The translations under genes were made by a program, and so were the position numbers. From contig JADGEO010000010.1 of assembly GCA_016744335.1 (NCBI GenBank), forward strand, positions 1 through 64,000: a stretch of 64,000 bases of DNA, read 5' to 3'. Origin of the DNA: Anaerolineales bacterium. GTDB taxonomy: Bacteria; Chloroflexota; Anaerolineae; Anaerolineales; Villigracilaceae. The notes beneath the pieces were generated by a model. The model was not told where the DNA came from, ran no database searches, and saw only the letters and a list, made by a program, of their open reading frames with translations. Shown here one piece after another: positions 5,543 through 53,700 of this stretch. The first letter of the stretch is position 1, and every line of letters begins with the position of its first letter.

Positions 5543-6397
5543 TTACCAATCATTATTTTTTTCATACCCCAATTTTATCAATAAATCCCCACTGATTTCT
5601 TTAAATATGACTTTATTCTCTTCGCTAAAATGATTTACCCATCCACCTGTCTTCCCTGAGCGGAAGGTATGACTCTTTTTTGGATTAATTGCCTCTACTA
5701 AAATCTCTAATGCCCTATCTCTCGGCATTGGAATTTCATATCCCGTTCTCTCAACTTCATCAAGCATGGCGAGGAGGGTTTCATCCCGATTATTGATCAA
5801 GTCTTCAAAGCGAATGCACATTACCTGCGGCTGTTCCAGCCACTCAAAAACGCCTTCGTAGCGCTGGCGCACGCTGACCATTTTTAAACCATCTTGGTCG
5901 ATGCCTCTAATAGCGACTTTCAACCGTGCATTAAAATCAGGCAGGGATAGGTAATAATCGTGCATTCCGTGTCCCTTGTGCATATCTGTTGCAAAGAAAA
6001 CCTGCGAAACGAGCATATCACGCGGGTCACGGTAAATGAAGTAGTTGACACGATGTGGCTGGCATAAGACAGATACATTTTGCTCGTTTGCTTCAACATA
6101 GCCCCAACCAATGGCGTGTTTTGGTTGCTCCTGCAAATCTTCGGCAACATCTTTTACTGGTCGCCGCCCACCCTCACGATTTATCGTGCGAACTGGCTCC
6201 GCAACTGTATATGCGTAAGGCATAATCTGCGTAAAACCGTTCAAAATTTGGAGTAGAAGATGCGAGCCGCTCTTGGGTTTAGAGTTGCCAAAAATAAGAG
6301 GGGCTTCATTAAAAGATAATCTCCGCCAGCGTAAAACCGCCTGAGCATATTTGCCCGGTTCGCGAAGTTTTTGGCGAAGACTATCTTTTAATTTCAT
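5543..6397 (-). CDS. Sulfotransferase domain protein
   Basis: GNSKPKSGSHLLLQIL (PAPS 5'-phosphosulfate loop type) and NYFIYRDPRDMLVSQVFF (3'-PB type) motifs. Confidence 0.85.
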   Translation of the reverse strand: MKLKDSLRQKLREPGKYAQAVLRWRRLSFNEAPLIFGNSKPKSGSHLLLQILNGFTQIMPYAYTVAEPVRTINREGGRRPVKDVAEDLQEQPKHAIGWGYVEANEQNVSVLCQPHRVNYFIYRDPRDMLVSQVFFATDMHKGHGMHDYYLSLPDFNARLKVAIRGIDQDGLKMVSVRQRYEGVFEWLEQPQVMCIRFEDLINNRDETLLAMLDEVERTGYEIPMPRDRALEILVEAINPKKSHTFRSGKTGGWVNHFSEENKVIFKEISGDLLIKLGYEKNNDW

Positions 6398-12010: not shown

Positions 12011-13723
12011 CTACTCAACCTTGCGATACAAATTACCCAATCCCGATTTTTGGATTGGCTCTAACCCCTGTGTTATTTCAGTTAGCCATATTTGATATTT
12101 AGGTGCTTCTCTATCAGGTGGATAAAAAATGGCTAAAACGCCCTTCCCCGAACGAATAGTATCGGATTGCTCAGATCCCCAAATAGCGTAAACGGGGCGA
12201 TTGGTCCAAAAATAGACTGCGGGAGGTTGATTGGTATAGACTTCAACATCGTCTGGCAAATCACGAATTGCCTCCATCACTGTAGATTCACTCCAACGCC
12301 ACGAGGCAAATCCTAGTGCAGATTCTTGCAATTCTACTACTGTACGATTTTTGGCAATAAAAGAAGTTGTTAGCAAAAAGAGGGCGAGGCTTATAGCCAA
12401 AAGACGTGGAAGTATTTTACCCGCTTCGTAAAGTTTGTGAATAAAATAAACCAGCATTATCAGAATAGCAACATAAATGGGAGAGAGTATACGGTCGTTG
12501 AGCGGCGTGGCGGCATCGAAATAGGAAAGTGAAACCAGCAAAGAACCAAGATAACCAAATATATATAAAACCGTAGTGAAGGAGATAATTTCTGGACGTG
12601 CATTTTTTTCTGGTTTTAGAAAGTATTTTATGCCACGCGGAAGCACCCAAATAAGGAGGCTAATTAGAAAGATAAGAAGGAAAATTGCTAAAATGGAGTA
12701 TTCTGGGGTTTCAAAATAAGGGAGGATAAATTGGAACAAACTTCTTAATCCACGCCCTGCATTTGCAAGAGTAACGGGATGCCAGACAATCATGCGGTTT
12801 GTTGCTGTGCCGCCAACTATTTTGTTGCGCAACATCCATGCTAAAGTGAAGGGAAGAACGCCTGCTAGAAAATAAGCAAGAGAGATGAAGCGTTTTTTCC
12901 ATGTTGGAAATAAGATAAAGATGGCAACGATAAAAGTGGCTATTAATGAGAGTGCGGCATAGCGGGTGAGGTAGGAGATTCCAGTGATAATACCCGTAAT
13001 GATGAGCCATTTCCCCCCTTTAACTCCCCCCGAGGGGGGGAGTACTTTCTCCTTCCCCCTTCGGGGAAAGGTTGGGCGTTGTCCTGAGTTTGTCGAAGGG
13101 ATGGGGGAAAAAACTCTATAAAAAGCTAAAAATGCCAACAAGCTAATAAAAAGATAAAGCGGTTCACTCAAGGCTTGGGCATGAAGGCGGAGAAGTGAGC
13201 TGTTTAATAAGAAAAGTGTGGCTAAAAGAAGACCTGCAAGGTAAGGTTCAAACCCGAAAGGTTTTATTGATACGTTTTTTATATCTAATGGTTTTGATGA
13301 AGTCTTTTCTGGTTTTGTTGAGGCGCGTTTGAAACCTTTCGGGTTTTGTTGAGAAGATTTTGTCATCTTATAGCCGAGCAAGCCCAAAACTCCTGCGTTT
13401 ACACCAAAGATTAGGACATTTAGGACGCGCGCGCTTCTGTAAGGATCAATTTTCAGAATAGAGCTAATGATTGCTAGGCTAAATGAATAAAAGGGGGGCC
13501 AATGCGTGATTGGCTCTAATCCCGTTGCAAGCCAGATGCGCGTGAAACCTTGCCCTGCCAACAAAGCACGAGATGCCGCAATATAGGAGATGGCATCGTC
13601 TGTGAGACCGAGACCATGCGGCGTGCTAATTTCCAGCAACCAAGCTCCAGTTGCAGTGAGCAAGATCAATACAAGGGCGTACGCGGTTTTTCTATCCATA
13701 AAAAGAAAACCGCTAATCTTCAC
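12011..13723 (-). CDS. GT39-like membrane glycosyltransferase with two in-frame repeat insertions
   Basis: AISYIAASRALLAGQGFTR...PITHWPPFYSFSLAI...; TM-rich; repeat-derived segments described in findings. Confidence 0.7.
   Translation of the reverse strand: MKISGFLFMDRKTAYALVLILLTATGAWLLEISTPHGLGLTDDAISYIAASRALLAGQGFTRIWLATGLEPITHWPPFYSFSLAIISSILKIDPYRSARVLNVLIFGVNAGVLGLLGYKMTKSSQQNPKGFKRASTKPEKTSSKPLDIKNVSIKPFGFEPYLAGLLLATLFLLNSSLLRLHAQALSEPLYLFISLLAFLAFYRVFSPIPSTNSGQRPTFPRRGKEKVLPPSGGVKGGKWLIITGIITGISYLTRYAALSLIATFIVAIFILFPTWKKRFISLAYFLAGVLPFTLAWMLRNKIVGGTATNRMIVWHPVTLANAGRGLRSLFQFILPYFETPEYSILAIFLLIFLISLLIWVLPRGIKYFLKPEKNARPEIISFTTVLYIFGYLGSLLVSLSYFDAATPLNDRILSPIYVAILIMLVYFIHKLYEAGKILPRLLAISLALFLLTTSFIAKNRTVVELQESALGFASWRWSESTVMEAIRDLPDDVEVYTNQPPAVYFWTNRPVYAIWGSEQSDTIRSGKGVLAIFYPPDREAPKYQIWLTEITQGLEPIQKSGLGNLYRKVE
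13008..13111. repeat. Intergenic-type G/C-palindrome repeat inside the GT39 CDS
   Basis: cccccctttaactccccccgaggggggg...cttcggggaaagg...cctgagtttgtcgaagggatggggg, translated FSPIPSTNSGQRPTFPRRGKEKVLPPSGGVKGGKW. Confidence 0.75.
13249..13347. repeat. Inverted-repeat element (AAACCCGAAAGGTTT arms) inside the GT39 CDS
   Basis: 15-bp arms 13250-13264 and 13332-13346 are perfect reverse complements; translates NPKGFKRASTKPEKTSSKPLDIKNVSIKPFGFE. Confidence 0.85.
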
Positions 13724-13771
13724 AAATCATCACTAATTTTATTTTTGCGAAGATTTGCGAGATTAGCGGTT
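13708..13771. repeat. AACCGCTAATC...GATTAGCGGTT palindromic repeat, copy 1
   Basis: accgctaatcttcacaaatcatcacta...gaagatttgcgagattagcggtt; second copy at 28439. Confidence 0.8.
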
Positions 13772-13792
13772 AAATCGTTTCTGCTGGGGGGG

Positions 13793-41142: not shown

Positions 41143-41226
41143 AATCTTTTCCTTCTGAAAAAAGGGGGAGGGAACAAAAATTGCTAAATTAAAAATTTAG
41201 AGAAGACCCGAAAGGTTTCAAAAAAA

Positions 41227-49134: not shown

Positions 49135-50100
49135 TTACGAAATTATGGCTCTTTCAGCCAAAAGAAATGCGCCCAGAATCCCAGCTTTCCCCTCCAGCGC
49201 AACGGGGACAATATACTCATCAATTGGCGGCAATTGGATATAGCCATTTAGCTCTTCTAATGTTTTTTGACGGATAAGCGGAAAAAGTTGGGATTGCTCC
49301 ATCACGCCTCCACCGAGAACAATTCTTTGTGGAGAGAAGGTGCAGATGAAACTTTGCAACGCCCGTGCAATTAGGCTGGCTTCTGCTTCCCAAGCGGGAT
49401 GCTCGGCATCCAGCACCTCTGCCTTTAGACCCCACCTTTTCTCTATTGCAGGACCGGAAGCCAGCCCCTCGAAGCAATCATCATGGAAGGGGCAAACGCT
49501 GATTGGAGACCCAAAAGGTTTCTTTAGAGCGTCTTTTTTATCAGAAGATATTGAGGGTTTAGAACCTGGTTTTATTGCAAAGTTAGGAATGCTTTCGGAT
49601 CTCATAGATATTGGAATATGTCCCATTTCAGGGTGCAATAATCCATGCAATAATTTGCCATTGACCATTGCACCGCCGCCGATTCCTGTACCGATGGTCA
49701 GGTAAATGAAATTGTCTAATTCTTGCGCCGCGCCCCAACGCCACTCGCCGAGTGCTGCCCCATTAACATCCGTATCGAAGCCAACGGGCACATCAAAAGC
49801 CTCTTGAAAAGGAAGAATGACGTTGGCGTTAGACCAGCTCTCTTTTGGGGTGGAGAGAATGTGCCCGTATTTAGCGGAAGCAAGCCTAGGGTCAAGTGGG
49901 CCAAACGATGCAATGCCAATCGCTGAGATATTGCCAAAGATAAGTCTTTGCTCCTCGAAGAAATCCACACAGTTCGCAAGTGTCTCATCTGGAGAAGTTG
50001 TTGAGATGCGAGTCTCTGCCAAAATTTCGCCCGCACTTGTTCCTATCCCGCAGATAAACTTTGTGCCGCCAGCTTCGATCCCACCAAAGAGTTTAGTCAT
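49135..50100 (-). CDS. ROK-family sugar kinase (fructokinase-like)
   Basis: FGGIEAGGTKFICGIGT...LTIGTGIGGGAMVNGKLLHGLLHPEMGHI...VCPFHDDCFEGLASGPAI; carries an in-frame insertion. Confidence 0.9.
   Translation of the reverse strand: MTKLFGGIEAGGTKFICGIGTSAGEILAETRISTTSPDETLANCVDFFEEQRLIFGNISAIGIASFGPLDPRLASAKYGHILSTPKESWSNANVILPFQEAFDVPVGFDTDVNGAALGEWRWGAAQELDNFIYLTIGTGIGGGAMVNGKLLHGLLHPEMGHIPISMRSESIPNFAIKPGSKPSISSDKKDALKKPFGSPISVCPFHDDCFEGLASGPAIEKRWGLKAEVLDAEHPAWEAEASLIARALQSFICTFSPQRIVLGGGVMEQSQLFPLIRQKTLEELNGYIQLPPIDEYIVPVALEGKAGILGAFLLAERAIIS
49505..49576. repeat. Repeat-like insertion within ROK kinase CDS
   Basis: gagacccaaaaggtttctttagagcgtcttttttatcagaag...gggtttagaacctggttttattg resembles the 13249 element; translates NFAIKPGSKPSISSDKKDALKKPFGSPIS. 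Confidence 0.7.
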
Positions 50101-50731: not shown

Positions 50732-53700
50732 TTAGGATTCCTTTTTATGAAGTTGTTTTTCTTCTTTTTGTATACGAGAAGGCGTTATCTCAAGATGATA
50801 ACGGTGCCCTTTAAAGCCGATGTTGAAGCGAAGTTCTCGCCAGTGGGCAGGTAAACTGGGTGAGACAGATAGCTTCTCCTTACTTGTGTCGATTCCTGCG
50901 AAAGCACGCAGAGCAAAGAAGACGGTCCCCGTCATCACGCCAAGATGGATGCCTTCTTTCGTTGTGCCGCCTTGAATATCTACAAAGTCACTTTCAAGGG
51001 CTTCAGCGTAGAGTTGCCAACTTAACTGTTTATCGCCGAGCAAGTCTGCTAGATAAGCGTGAACAAGCCGACTTAAGGTTGAGCCGTGCGATGTTCGGGG
51101 CAGGTAATAGTCAAAATTTAGGCGCAAAAAATCATCGGGCGGGGCGTAGCCTAAATCACCCAAAATGCTTTTAACTTTCTCTTCGCCAAGTACATAAAAT
51201 ATCATCAATGCGTCAGCTTGTTTCGCGACCTTATAATCGTCTGGCGATTTGCCCTCAGCTTTCAGGATGCGATCCATACGATGGATATTGCCATATTTTT
51301 CGCGGTAATGTGCCCAATCGAGTTCTTTTAGAGCAAAATAGCCTTCAAATTGCTCAAGAACGCCCTCGTTATTAATCGGAATCGTGAGACGCTTAGAAAT
51401 ATCTTGCCAGCGCGTGAGTTCGTCATCCGAGAGTTGCAGTTTTTCAAGCAGGGTAGTTTTTGCTTTTTTGCTCATTTTATTGAGTAAATCAAAAGATCGC
51501 CGTAGCGACCATGCCACCAAGATATTGGTATAGCTATTATTTTTCAGCTCGCCTTCGTTGGTATTGGGATATTTCTCGTGGAACTCGTCTGGTCCCATCA
51601 CGCCAACGATGGAATAACGCCCGCTTTTTTCGTCAAAATTGGCTTTTTTAGCCCAAAATCGGCAAATTTCTAAAAAGACTTCTGCGCCGTAATTCTCTAG
51701 AAAATCCTGATCTTCGTTGCCCCATAAATAATCCCAGATATTGTAGGCAACCGCTAAGCTCACATGCCTTTGTAAAATACTGTAATCTTCACCCCATTTT
51801 CCCGAAAGCGGGTTTAGGTGCAAGGTTTGTGTCTCTTCATCGCCGCTACTGCCGCTTTGCCAGGGGAAAATTGCCCCATCAAAACCATTTTCCTTAGCAT
51901 ATTGTCGTGCTGCATCCAAACGGCGATAACGATACATTAATGCCGAGCGAGCGATTTCAGGAAAATGAAAATTAAGAAATGGCTGAATATATAATTCGTC
52001 CCAGAAGATATGCCCGCGGTACGCTTCTCCATGCAAGCCGCGTGCGGGCAACCCTGCATCAAAATCCTTATTATGGGGCGATGCTGACAGCATTGTGTGA
52101 TAAAGATGTAAACGGATTAATTTCTGTGCTTTTCTATCGCCCACTATTTCTATGTCAATTTTCTTCCAGATTTTTGTCCAAGCGGCTTCACTTTTTTTGC
52201 GAATTCCATCAAAACTTCTTTTTTGAGATAGCGCATCTTGCGCCGCTTCATTCATGCTTTGGATCGGCTCAGCAACCGTGTTTTCAACTTGCTCCTGGTT
52301 GGACGCGTAAACTGCCACCAATTTATCTACCGTTAAAGGAATGCCTTCTTTTACATCTACCGTGAAAAAGGTCTTTACCTTGGCTGGAGCGTGGATTTGC
52401 TCAAAATTTGGCACAATTTTCTGCCCATCAACAGTGATAAATAAATGCGCTTCTTCCGCAATTAAAATCTTAGATTGATTGGTCTTCACGAGCAAAGAGC
52501 TACGATTGCCCTTCCCATCGACTTTAATCCCTTCGAGGTGCTTGCTATTCAAATCTTTATAACGAGCCACGCCTGCGTTGATAATCTCTCCATCCAAGAT
52601 TGAGCGGACACTGATTTTCTTAGTGTAATTTAGTGGGGTAATTTCATAGCGTAACGCCGCCAAATGCGGATTATCCATACTTGCCAATCGTTGCGAAATA
52701 ATTTTTGTTTGATTTCCTTCAGCATCTTCAACGATTAATTCACGGCGTAAAATTCCAGTCCGAAAATCAAGACAACGGGAGATTTTCTTTATGTCGCCCC
52801 TCTCTAACTCATCCCTGATGGGGGAAGTGCCCGACAAGGCTGAGGGGGAGGGCGAAAACCATTCCCCGTCTTCAACCTTGAATGTGATTGGCAACCAATT
52901 GGGCGTATTAACCATGTCTTCGTTGCTGATGATACGTCCGCTAACTTCAGATTCCAAACGATTATAGAGACCGGTAATATAGGTGCCGGGATAATTTTCT
53001 TTGCCCGCAAAACTTTCTTCGAGTGCGCCACGTGTGGCGAAAAAACCATTCCCGATGCTGAGAAGGGTTTCTCGTGTTCCTTCCAGCTCAGGACGATAAT
53101 CATGATAAGAAATTGACCAGAGGTCATCTTCTAGCCCTTTTGCAAACCATTGATCGATTTTTTCTATATCAATTTCAGCAAGGTCTTCTACGACTATATC
53201 TGCGCCATTGATGCGAAGAGCCTGAGCGTTATTGTCGCGCGCTACGCCGATCGTTAAGCCAAACCCGCCTTTTTGACCCGCCTGCACGCCAGAAACGGCA
53301 TCTTCAACGATGACGGTACGATCATAGTGAACGCCTAAATTGTCGCAGGCGGTTGTGAAAATATCCGCTTGGGGTTTGCCCATCAAGCCTAATTTGGCGG
53401 AAGCAACTCCATCCACGCGCGTCTCGATCAGATCCAATAAGCCAACAGTTTCCAAGACAACTTTCGCATTCTTGCTTGAAGAAGCCACGCCTATCCGAAT
53501 TCCGGCATCTCGTAATTGGTGCATAAAATTGACCGTGCTTTGATAAACACGCACATTTCCCGCCTGAATGCTTTTGTTGAAAAGGGTATTTTTACGATTT
53601 CCCAACCCGCAAATAGTTTTTTCTTTGGGCGCATCATTGGGGTCGCCAAAAGGTAGCTCAATGTCGCGCGCTTTTAGAAAAGAATCTACGCCCTGATAGC

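Follow-up and report, generated by a model that had tools for sequence, protein, structure and literature searches.

A 97-bp palindromic element lies in frame in a membrane protein gene of Candidatus Desulfolinea, a genus of marine, uncultured Chloroflexota, and is one of about 20 copies of a repeat family in the same genome. The family is very probably a REPIN- or MITE-like non-autonomous palindromic doublet that behaves like the Rickettsia palindromic elements (RPEs), its in-frame copies being survivors of selection. The direct observations behind this reading are that the element is multi-copy, that its gene sites are empty in relatives, that its gene copies are in frame, that its two arms covary and are more conserved than the spacer, and that the frame of its intergenic copies is neutral.

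The element and its host gene

The window, that is, the whole 64,000-nt stretch of DNA analyzed here, comes from a draft genome of 3.62 Mb. The features that concern the element and its host gene are as follows.

12011–13723, minus strand: host gene, polytopic membrane protein of 570 aa; orthologues in 8/8 genus mates; no Pfam or NCBIfam family
13250–13346, minus strand: palindromic element of 97 bp, in frame in the host gene; inverted repeat, ~20 genome copies, missing from orthologues
13250–13264, no strand assigned: arm of 15 bp, mini-hairpin AAACC-CGAAA-GGTTT, free of stop codons in six frames
13332–13346, no strand assigned: arm of 15 bp, exact reverse complement of the arm at 13250–13264
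13010–13105, minus strand: second, unrelated in-frame repeat insert of the host gene, peptide PIPSTNSGQRPTFPRRGKEKVLPPSGGVKGGK; orthologues have other inserts or none here
41204–41218, plus strand: solo arm (half-element), intergenic, 1 mismatch

A preliminary description of this DNA had reported two 15-bp arms, each a mini-hairpin, enclosing a segment that stays open in the coding frame. The positions of the arms (AAACCCGAAAGGTTT at 13250–13264 and AAACCTTTCGGGTTT at 13332–13346) were right, and the inverted repeats are perfect, with 100% complementarity over 15 nt each and a gap of 67 nt. Both arms have the mini-hairpin form, and the element is open throughout the minus-strand ORF, in which it encodes the peptide NPKGFKRASTKPEKTSSKPLDIKNVSIKPFGF, corresponding to host residues 127–158 (32 aa). 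The half-element that had been suspected near 41203 is real as well. The label “GT39-like” given to the host gene could not be confirmed, as profile searches returned nothing in Pfam at E ≤ 5 and nothing in NCBIfam at E ≤ 1. A structured RNA family was rejected as the identity of the 97-bp element after an Rfam search without a match.

The insert at 13010–13105, which had been overlooked, is itself a repeat found elsewhere in its own genome. The matching loop in relatives contains other repeat-like inserts, for example, VIANEVKQSPRR...FLAMTK (G003/G007) and QPTSVGF...VAR (G004/G005). At 13700–13780, an intergenic inverted repeat (ccgctaatcttc...gaagatttgcgagattagcgg) adjoins a sulfate adenylyltransferase/APS kinase gene and is possibly another dispersed repeat.

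Copy number and distribution

A 13-mer of the arm, allowing at most 1 mismatch, occurs 43 times in the 3.62-Mb genome versus 6 times for the reversed control (approximately sevenfold), and arms in pairs were found at 5 places versus 0 in the control. Of the 43 arms, we counted about 34 in pairs, and single arms are near background, which indicates that the doublet is the unit. Copies were collected by similarity search and with a covariance model built from 16 copies. This yielded 20 copies in the genome of the window (G000), 27 in G008, 17 in G002, 9 in G003, and 7 in G007; thus, four of the other eight members of the genus carry many copies. G005 has one copy and G006 one weak match, and the same search detected no 97-bp element in G001 and G004. 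As the preliminary description had predicted, the element is present in many copies, some between genes and others in frame within them.

Searching 85,462 species genomes with the exact-arm pattern gave matches in metagenome-assembled genomes of Anaerolineae only, including Candidatus Desulfolinea nitratireducens (G005), and indicated no other genus, the record of isolate BS150m-G17 not being placed to genus. The exact pattern was not found in a viral contig collection, and a phage vehicle for the element was rejected on this ground.

Elements of the same length (94–97 bp) with other arms (AGACCTGACAGGTTT, AGACATGACATGTCT, and AGACCCTAAAGGTTT) are present in further genera of the family and order, and the similarity of their spacers to the 97-bp consensus reaches z values of 1 to 5 over shuffles. 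This similarity suggests that these elements and the 97-bp element may form one superfamily in which both arms change together. Shorter forms were also seen. One of 63 bp, with AGACCCGAAGGGTTT arms, is situated in frame within a YjeF-like gene (LVGTGNNGG) of another family of the order (locus L137, 1501–1563), and in-frame insertion may therefore extend beyond Candidatus Desulfolinea. Minimal forms of 33 to 34 bp, consisting of two arms and almost free of spacer, start at position 1501 of loci L142, L144, and L145, and 48- and 65-bp forms are present in the genus, spacer length seemingly falling into discrete classes.

Insertion sites and empty alleles

The 32-aa segment is missing from 12/12 aligned orthologues of the window gene, which shows that the peptide is an insertion; its absence from most orthologues had been anticipated in the preliminary description. 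Empty alleles were also found for the RlmI-like and helicase (MrfA-type) genes and, using chimeric queries of joined flanks, for 10 further hosts: Mfd, a ROK kinase, a GT4-like glycosyltransferase, a HAD-GH65 fusion, a helicase-associated protein, AroKB, L-lactate permease, a DUF2298-like membrane protein, a second polytopic membrane protein, and an HpnE-like oxidoreductase. Host names other than Pfam matches were read from sequence motifs by us. Two further sites are N-terminal (G000 C51 and G008 C144a), and the real start codon could be downstream there. The net inserted length differs among sites, from 87 to 111 nt, so that the exact boundaries of the element are not fixed. With regard to the solvent-exposed position expected of an RPE insert, the inserts in the ROK kinase (1xc3) and in RlmI (3c0k), placed by sequence on solved homologues, fall between conserved blocks.

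The window contains a second full copy, which the preliminary description had missed:

49135–50100, minus strand: ROK family kinase gene carrying the copy
49507–49602, minus strand: second copy of the element family, in frame (in a different phase) in the ROK family sugar kinase gene; common to two genus mates, missing in five

In G008 (L160, C144), one ROK kinase gene has two copies in different frames (contig positions 6388–6483 and 6970–7066), one directly after the start codon and the other mid-gene.

Relatives that lack the 97-bp element often have a different palindromic repeat in its place, likewise in frame. This was seen for Mfd in G000, G005, and G006, for the GT4-like gene in six genomes, for the GH65 fusion in G002 and G000, for DUF2298 in G000, G006, and G005, and for the helicase in G007 and G005. 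One such insert lies in the window:

52793–52852, minus strand: unrelated G/C-rich insert, in frame in the fused HAD hydrolase/GH65 gene; site of the 97-bp family in G008 and G007

Most simply, 30 additional residues are tolerated by few loops, and all repeat families therefore accumulate in these; targeting of the shared loops by the repeats is also conceivable.

Reading frame

At all 15 independent gene sites (in Mfd, the MrfA-type helicase, the RlmI-like protein, AroKB, the ROK kinase, and others), the host frame runs through the copy without a stop. Eleven of the 15 use the D/NPKGF...KPFGS frame, which is the only frame open in the consensus; under equal use of the six frames, P would be about 2e-6. 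Survival of open insertions alone would be expected to produce such a bias. The arms are free of stop codons in every frame, as are 29% of random 15-mers from the window. Among intergenic copies, 11 of 22 are open in the same frame versus about 10 by neutral simulation, and the frame is therefore not maintained outside genes.

On this reading, the element is a 97-bp doublet of two inverted, REP-like 15-bp mini-hairpins around a spacer of ~67 bp, which has multiplied as a unit within one Chloroflexota genus, in intergenic DNA and in genes, and was presumably mobilized in trans by some enzyme. With arms free of stop codons and a spacer open in one of six frames, insertions that are open in frame would survive in tolerant loops, and those that are not open, or not in a tolerant loop, would be lost. 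The host protein would gain ~32 hydrophilic residues, a change that is probably near-neutral for it.

Conservation of arms and spacer

At sites common to species, identity is 92% in the arms, 66% in the spacer, and 75% in the flanking host codons, the value for the arms being in part a matter of ascertainment, as copies with intact arms score better in the search model. The arms also covary, as the match within copies exceeds that between copies (0/2000 permutations). At the site in the helicase-associated gene, which was found by gene homology alone, the arms have decayed in G002 and G000, and the insert is shortened or expanded. It is possible, and we put this forward tentatively, that selection at the nucleotide level, or homogenization, acts on the 15-bp arms even in genes, while the same loops accept many unrelated palindromic families. 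The arms might then be a protein-binding site, an RNA hairpin, or a mobility signal that is kept despite coding, and the proteins of this genus would carry maintained DNA or RNA elements in their loops.

Relationship to known elements and alternative explanations

We found no earlier description of such elements in this lineage in the searchable literature. RPEs, with counterparts in Wolbachia (WPE), are palindromic repeats of ~100 to 150 bp that lie between genes as well as, in frame, within unrelated protein genes (PMC3767692, PMC10969869). The present family resembles them as a dispersed, multi-copy palindromic repeat, slightly under RPE length at 97 bp and with ~20 copies, and in its in-frame insertion in unrelated genes that are empty in orthologues, here at 15 independent sites. 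It differs in belonging to another phylum with marine uncultured hosts, and in that several unrelated repeat families occupy the same loops. Shared descent and occurrence in Rickettsiales are likewise not indicated, since among the 85,462 species genomes the exact-arm pattern matched Anaerolineae records only. The CGTC end tag is a feature of the RPEs of Rickettsia conorii (PMC3733652); in the 97-bp family, the end tetranucleotide is CGTC in 2/80 and GTAG in 5/80, and a GTAG/CGTC-tagged repeat was rejected as its identity on these counts. The likeness to RPEs drawn in the preliminary description thus stands as an analogy but not as membership by descent, the exact arms having been found only in Candidatus Desulfolinea and the CGTC tag lacking.

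Intragenic GTAG/CGTC REP dimers, such as the one in uvrA of Opitutus terrae, code for 20 to 30 residues, and many lie in replication and repair genes (PMC3733652). Hosts of the repair type, namely Mfd and the MrfA-type helicase, occur here as well, but the GTAG/CGTC end tetranucleotide of those dimers was not found on the 97-bp family. PARCELs are tandem palindromic coding repeats of 25 residues that form whole domains (PMC2996958); the 97-bp inserts share with them the palindromic coding repeat but are single and dispersed. We do not file the family as RPE, REPIN, or MITE, because at least one defining feature of each was looked for and not found.

REPINs of Pseudomonas have inverted conserved ends, a less conserved spacer, and one hairpin, and are described in extragenic space (PMC3116915). 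The 97-bp element fits this description in its conserved inverted ends, less conserved spacer, and hairpin, and in both cases the doublet is the unit. It could accordingly be a true REPIN, that is, a REP doublet mobilized by a REP-associated tyrosine transposase (RAYT), and Y1-type transposases are indeed present in the genus. We nevertheless regard this as doubtful. All nine genus members, element-free ones included, have Y1-type transposases, whose presence is not correlated with copies; none of the eight Y1 loci examined has the arms flanking the transposase gene. Given this distribution and these eight loci, a RAYT/Y1 transposase was rejected as the mover. Moreover, the GTAG tag is missing (5/80), and the 97-bp element is often intragenic, genes holding 29 to 41% of the copies in several genomes.

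A different concern is that the “shared” sites could be independent insertions into a hotspot, which would account for arms that are identical beside spacers that diverge. The same loops do receive different repeat families, and the spacer identity of the Mfd pair and of two of the three helicase pairs is no higher than that of random pairs. For the GT4-like, ROK, and GH65 pairs and one helicase pair, however, spacer identity is above 96 to 100% of random pairs, and at least these are therefore inherited, which makes the hotspot reading unlikely as an account of the shared sites.

The family could also consist of ordinary MITEs moved by the DDE transposase of an insertion sequence with the same ends, which would agree with its terminal inverted repeats, short length, many copies, and lack of a transposase gene. 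Target-site duplications gave no signal in 79 copies (lengths 2 to 10, offsets 0 to 3, best z 2.0), and no longer, transposase-sized element enclosed by the same arms was found in its own genome, which is a draft, and draft assemblies drop repeats. That the family consists of ordinary MITEs is quite unlikely. QMITE1 and QMITE2 of Coxiella burnetii are short non-autonomous repeats that are sometimes in frame in ORFs (PMC5896051), but they have direct repeats (2–3 or 7–11 nt), of which none was found for the 97-bp element.

Finally, that the inserted peptide has been recruited for protein function and is selected as a coding module is highly improbable: the frame is kept across species divergence at shared sites, but third-position changes are not in excess, the spacer is less conserved than the host codons, the hosts are many and unrelated, and the corresponding spot in relatives is empty or holds other repeats. 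With no extra variability at codon position 3 in the CDS copies and intergenic openness neutral, selection on the peptide is unsupported; judged from these sequence comparisons, the peptide shows no constraint.

Significance

In-frame palindromic inserts are best known from Rickettsia. Their counterparts here occur in an unrelated lineage, an uncultured marine Chloroflexota genus, at no fewer than 15 sites (≥15), in hosts that include proteins as basic as Mfd and AroKB, and in loops whose repeat families vary from species to species. The genus thus lends itself to comparison, with empty, filled, shortened, and expanded alleles available next to one another, and two questions become testable: by what route such elements move and whether their hosts merely tolerate them. 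On the practical side, such peptides will pass for lineage-specific protein domains.
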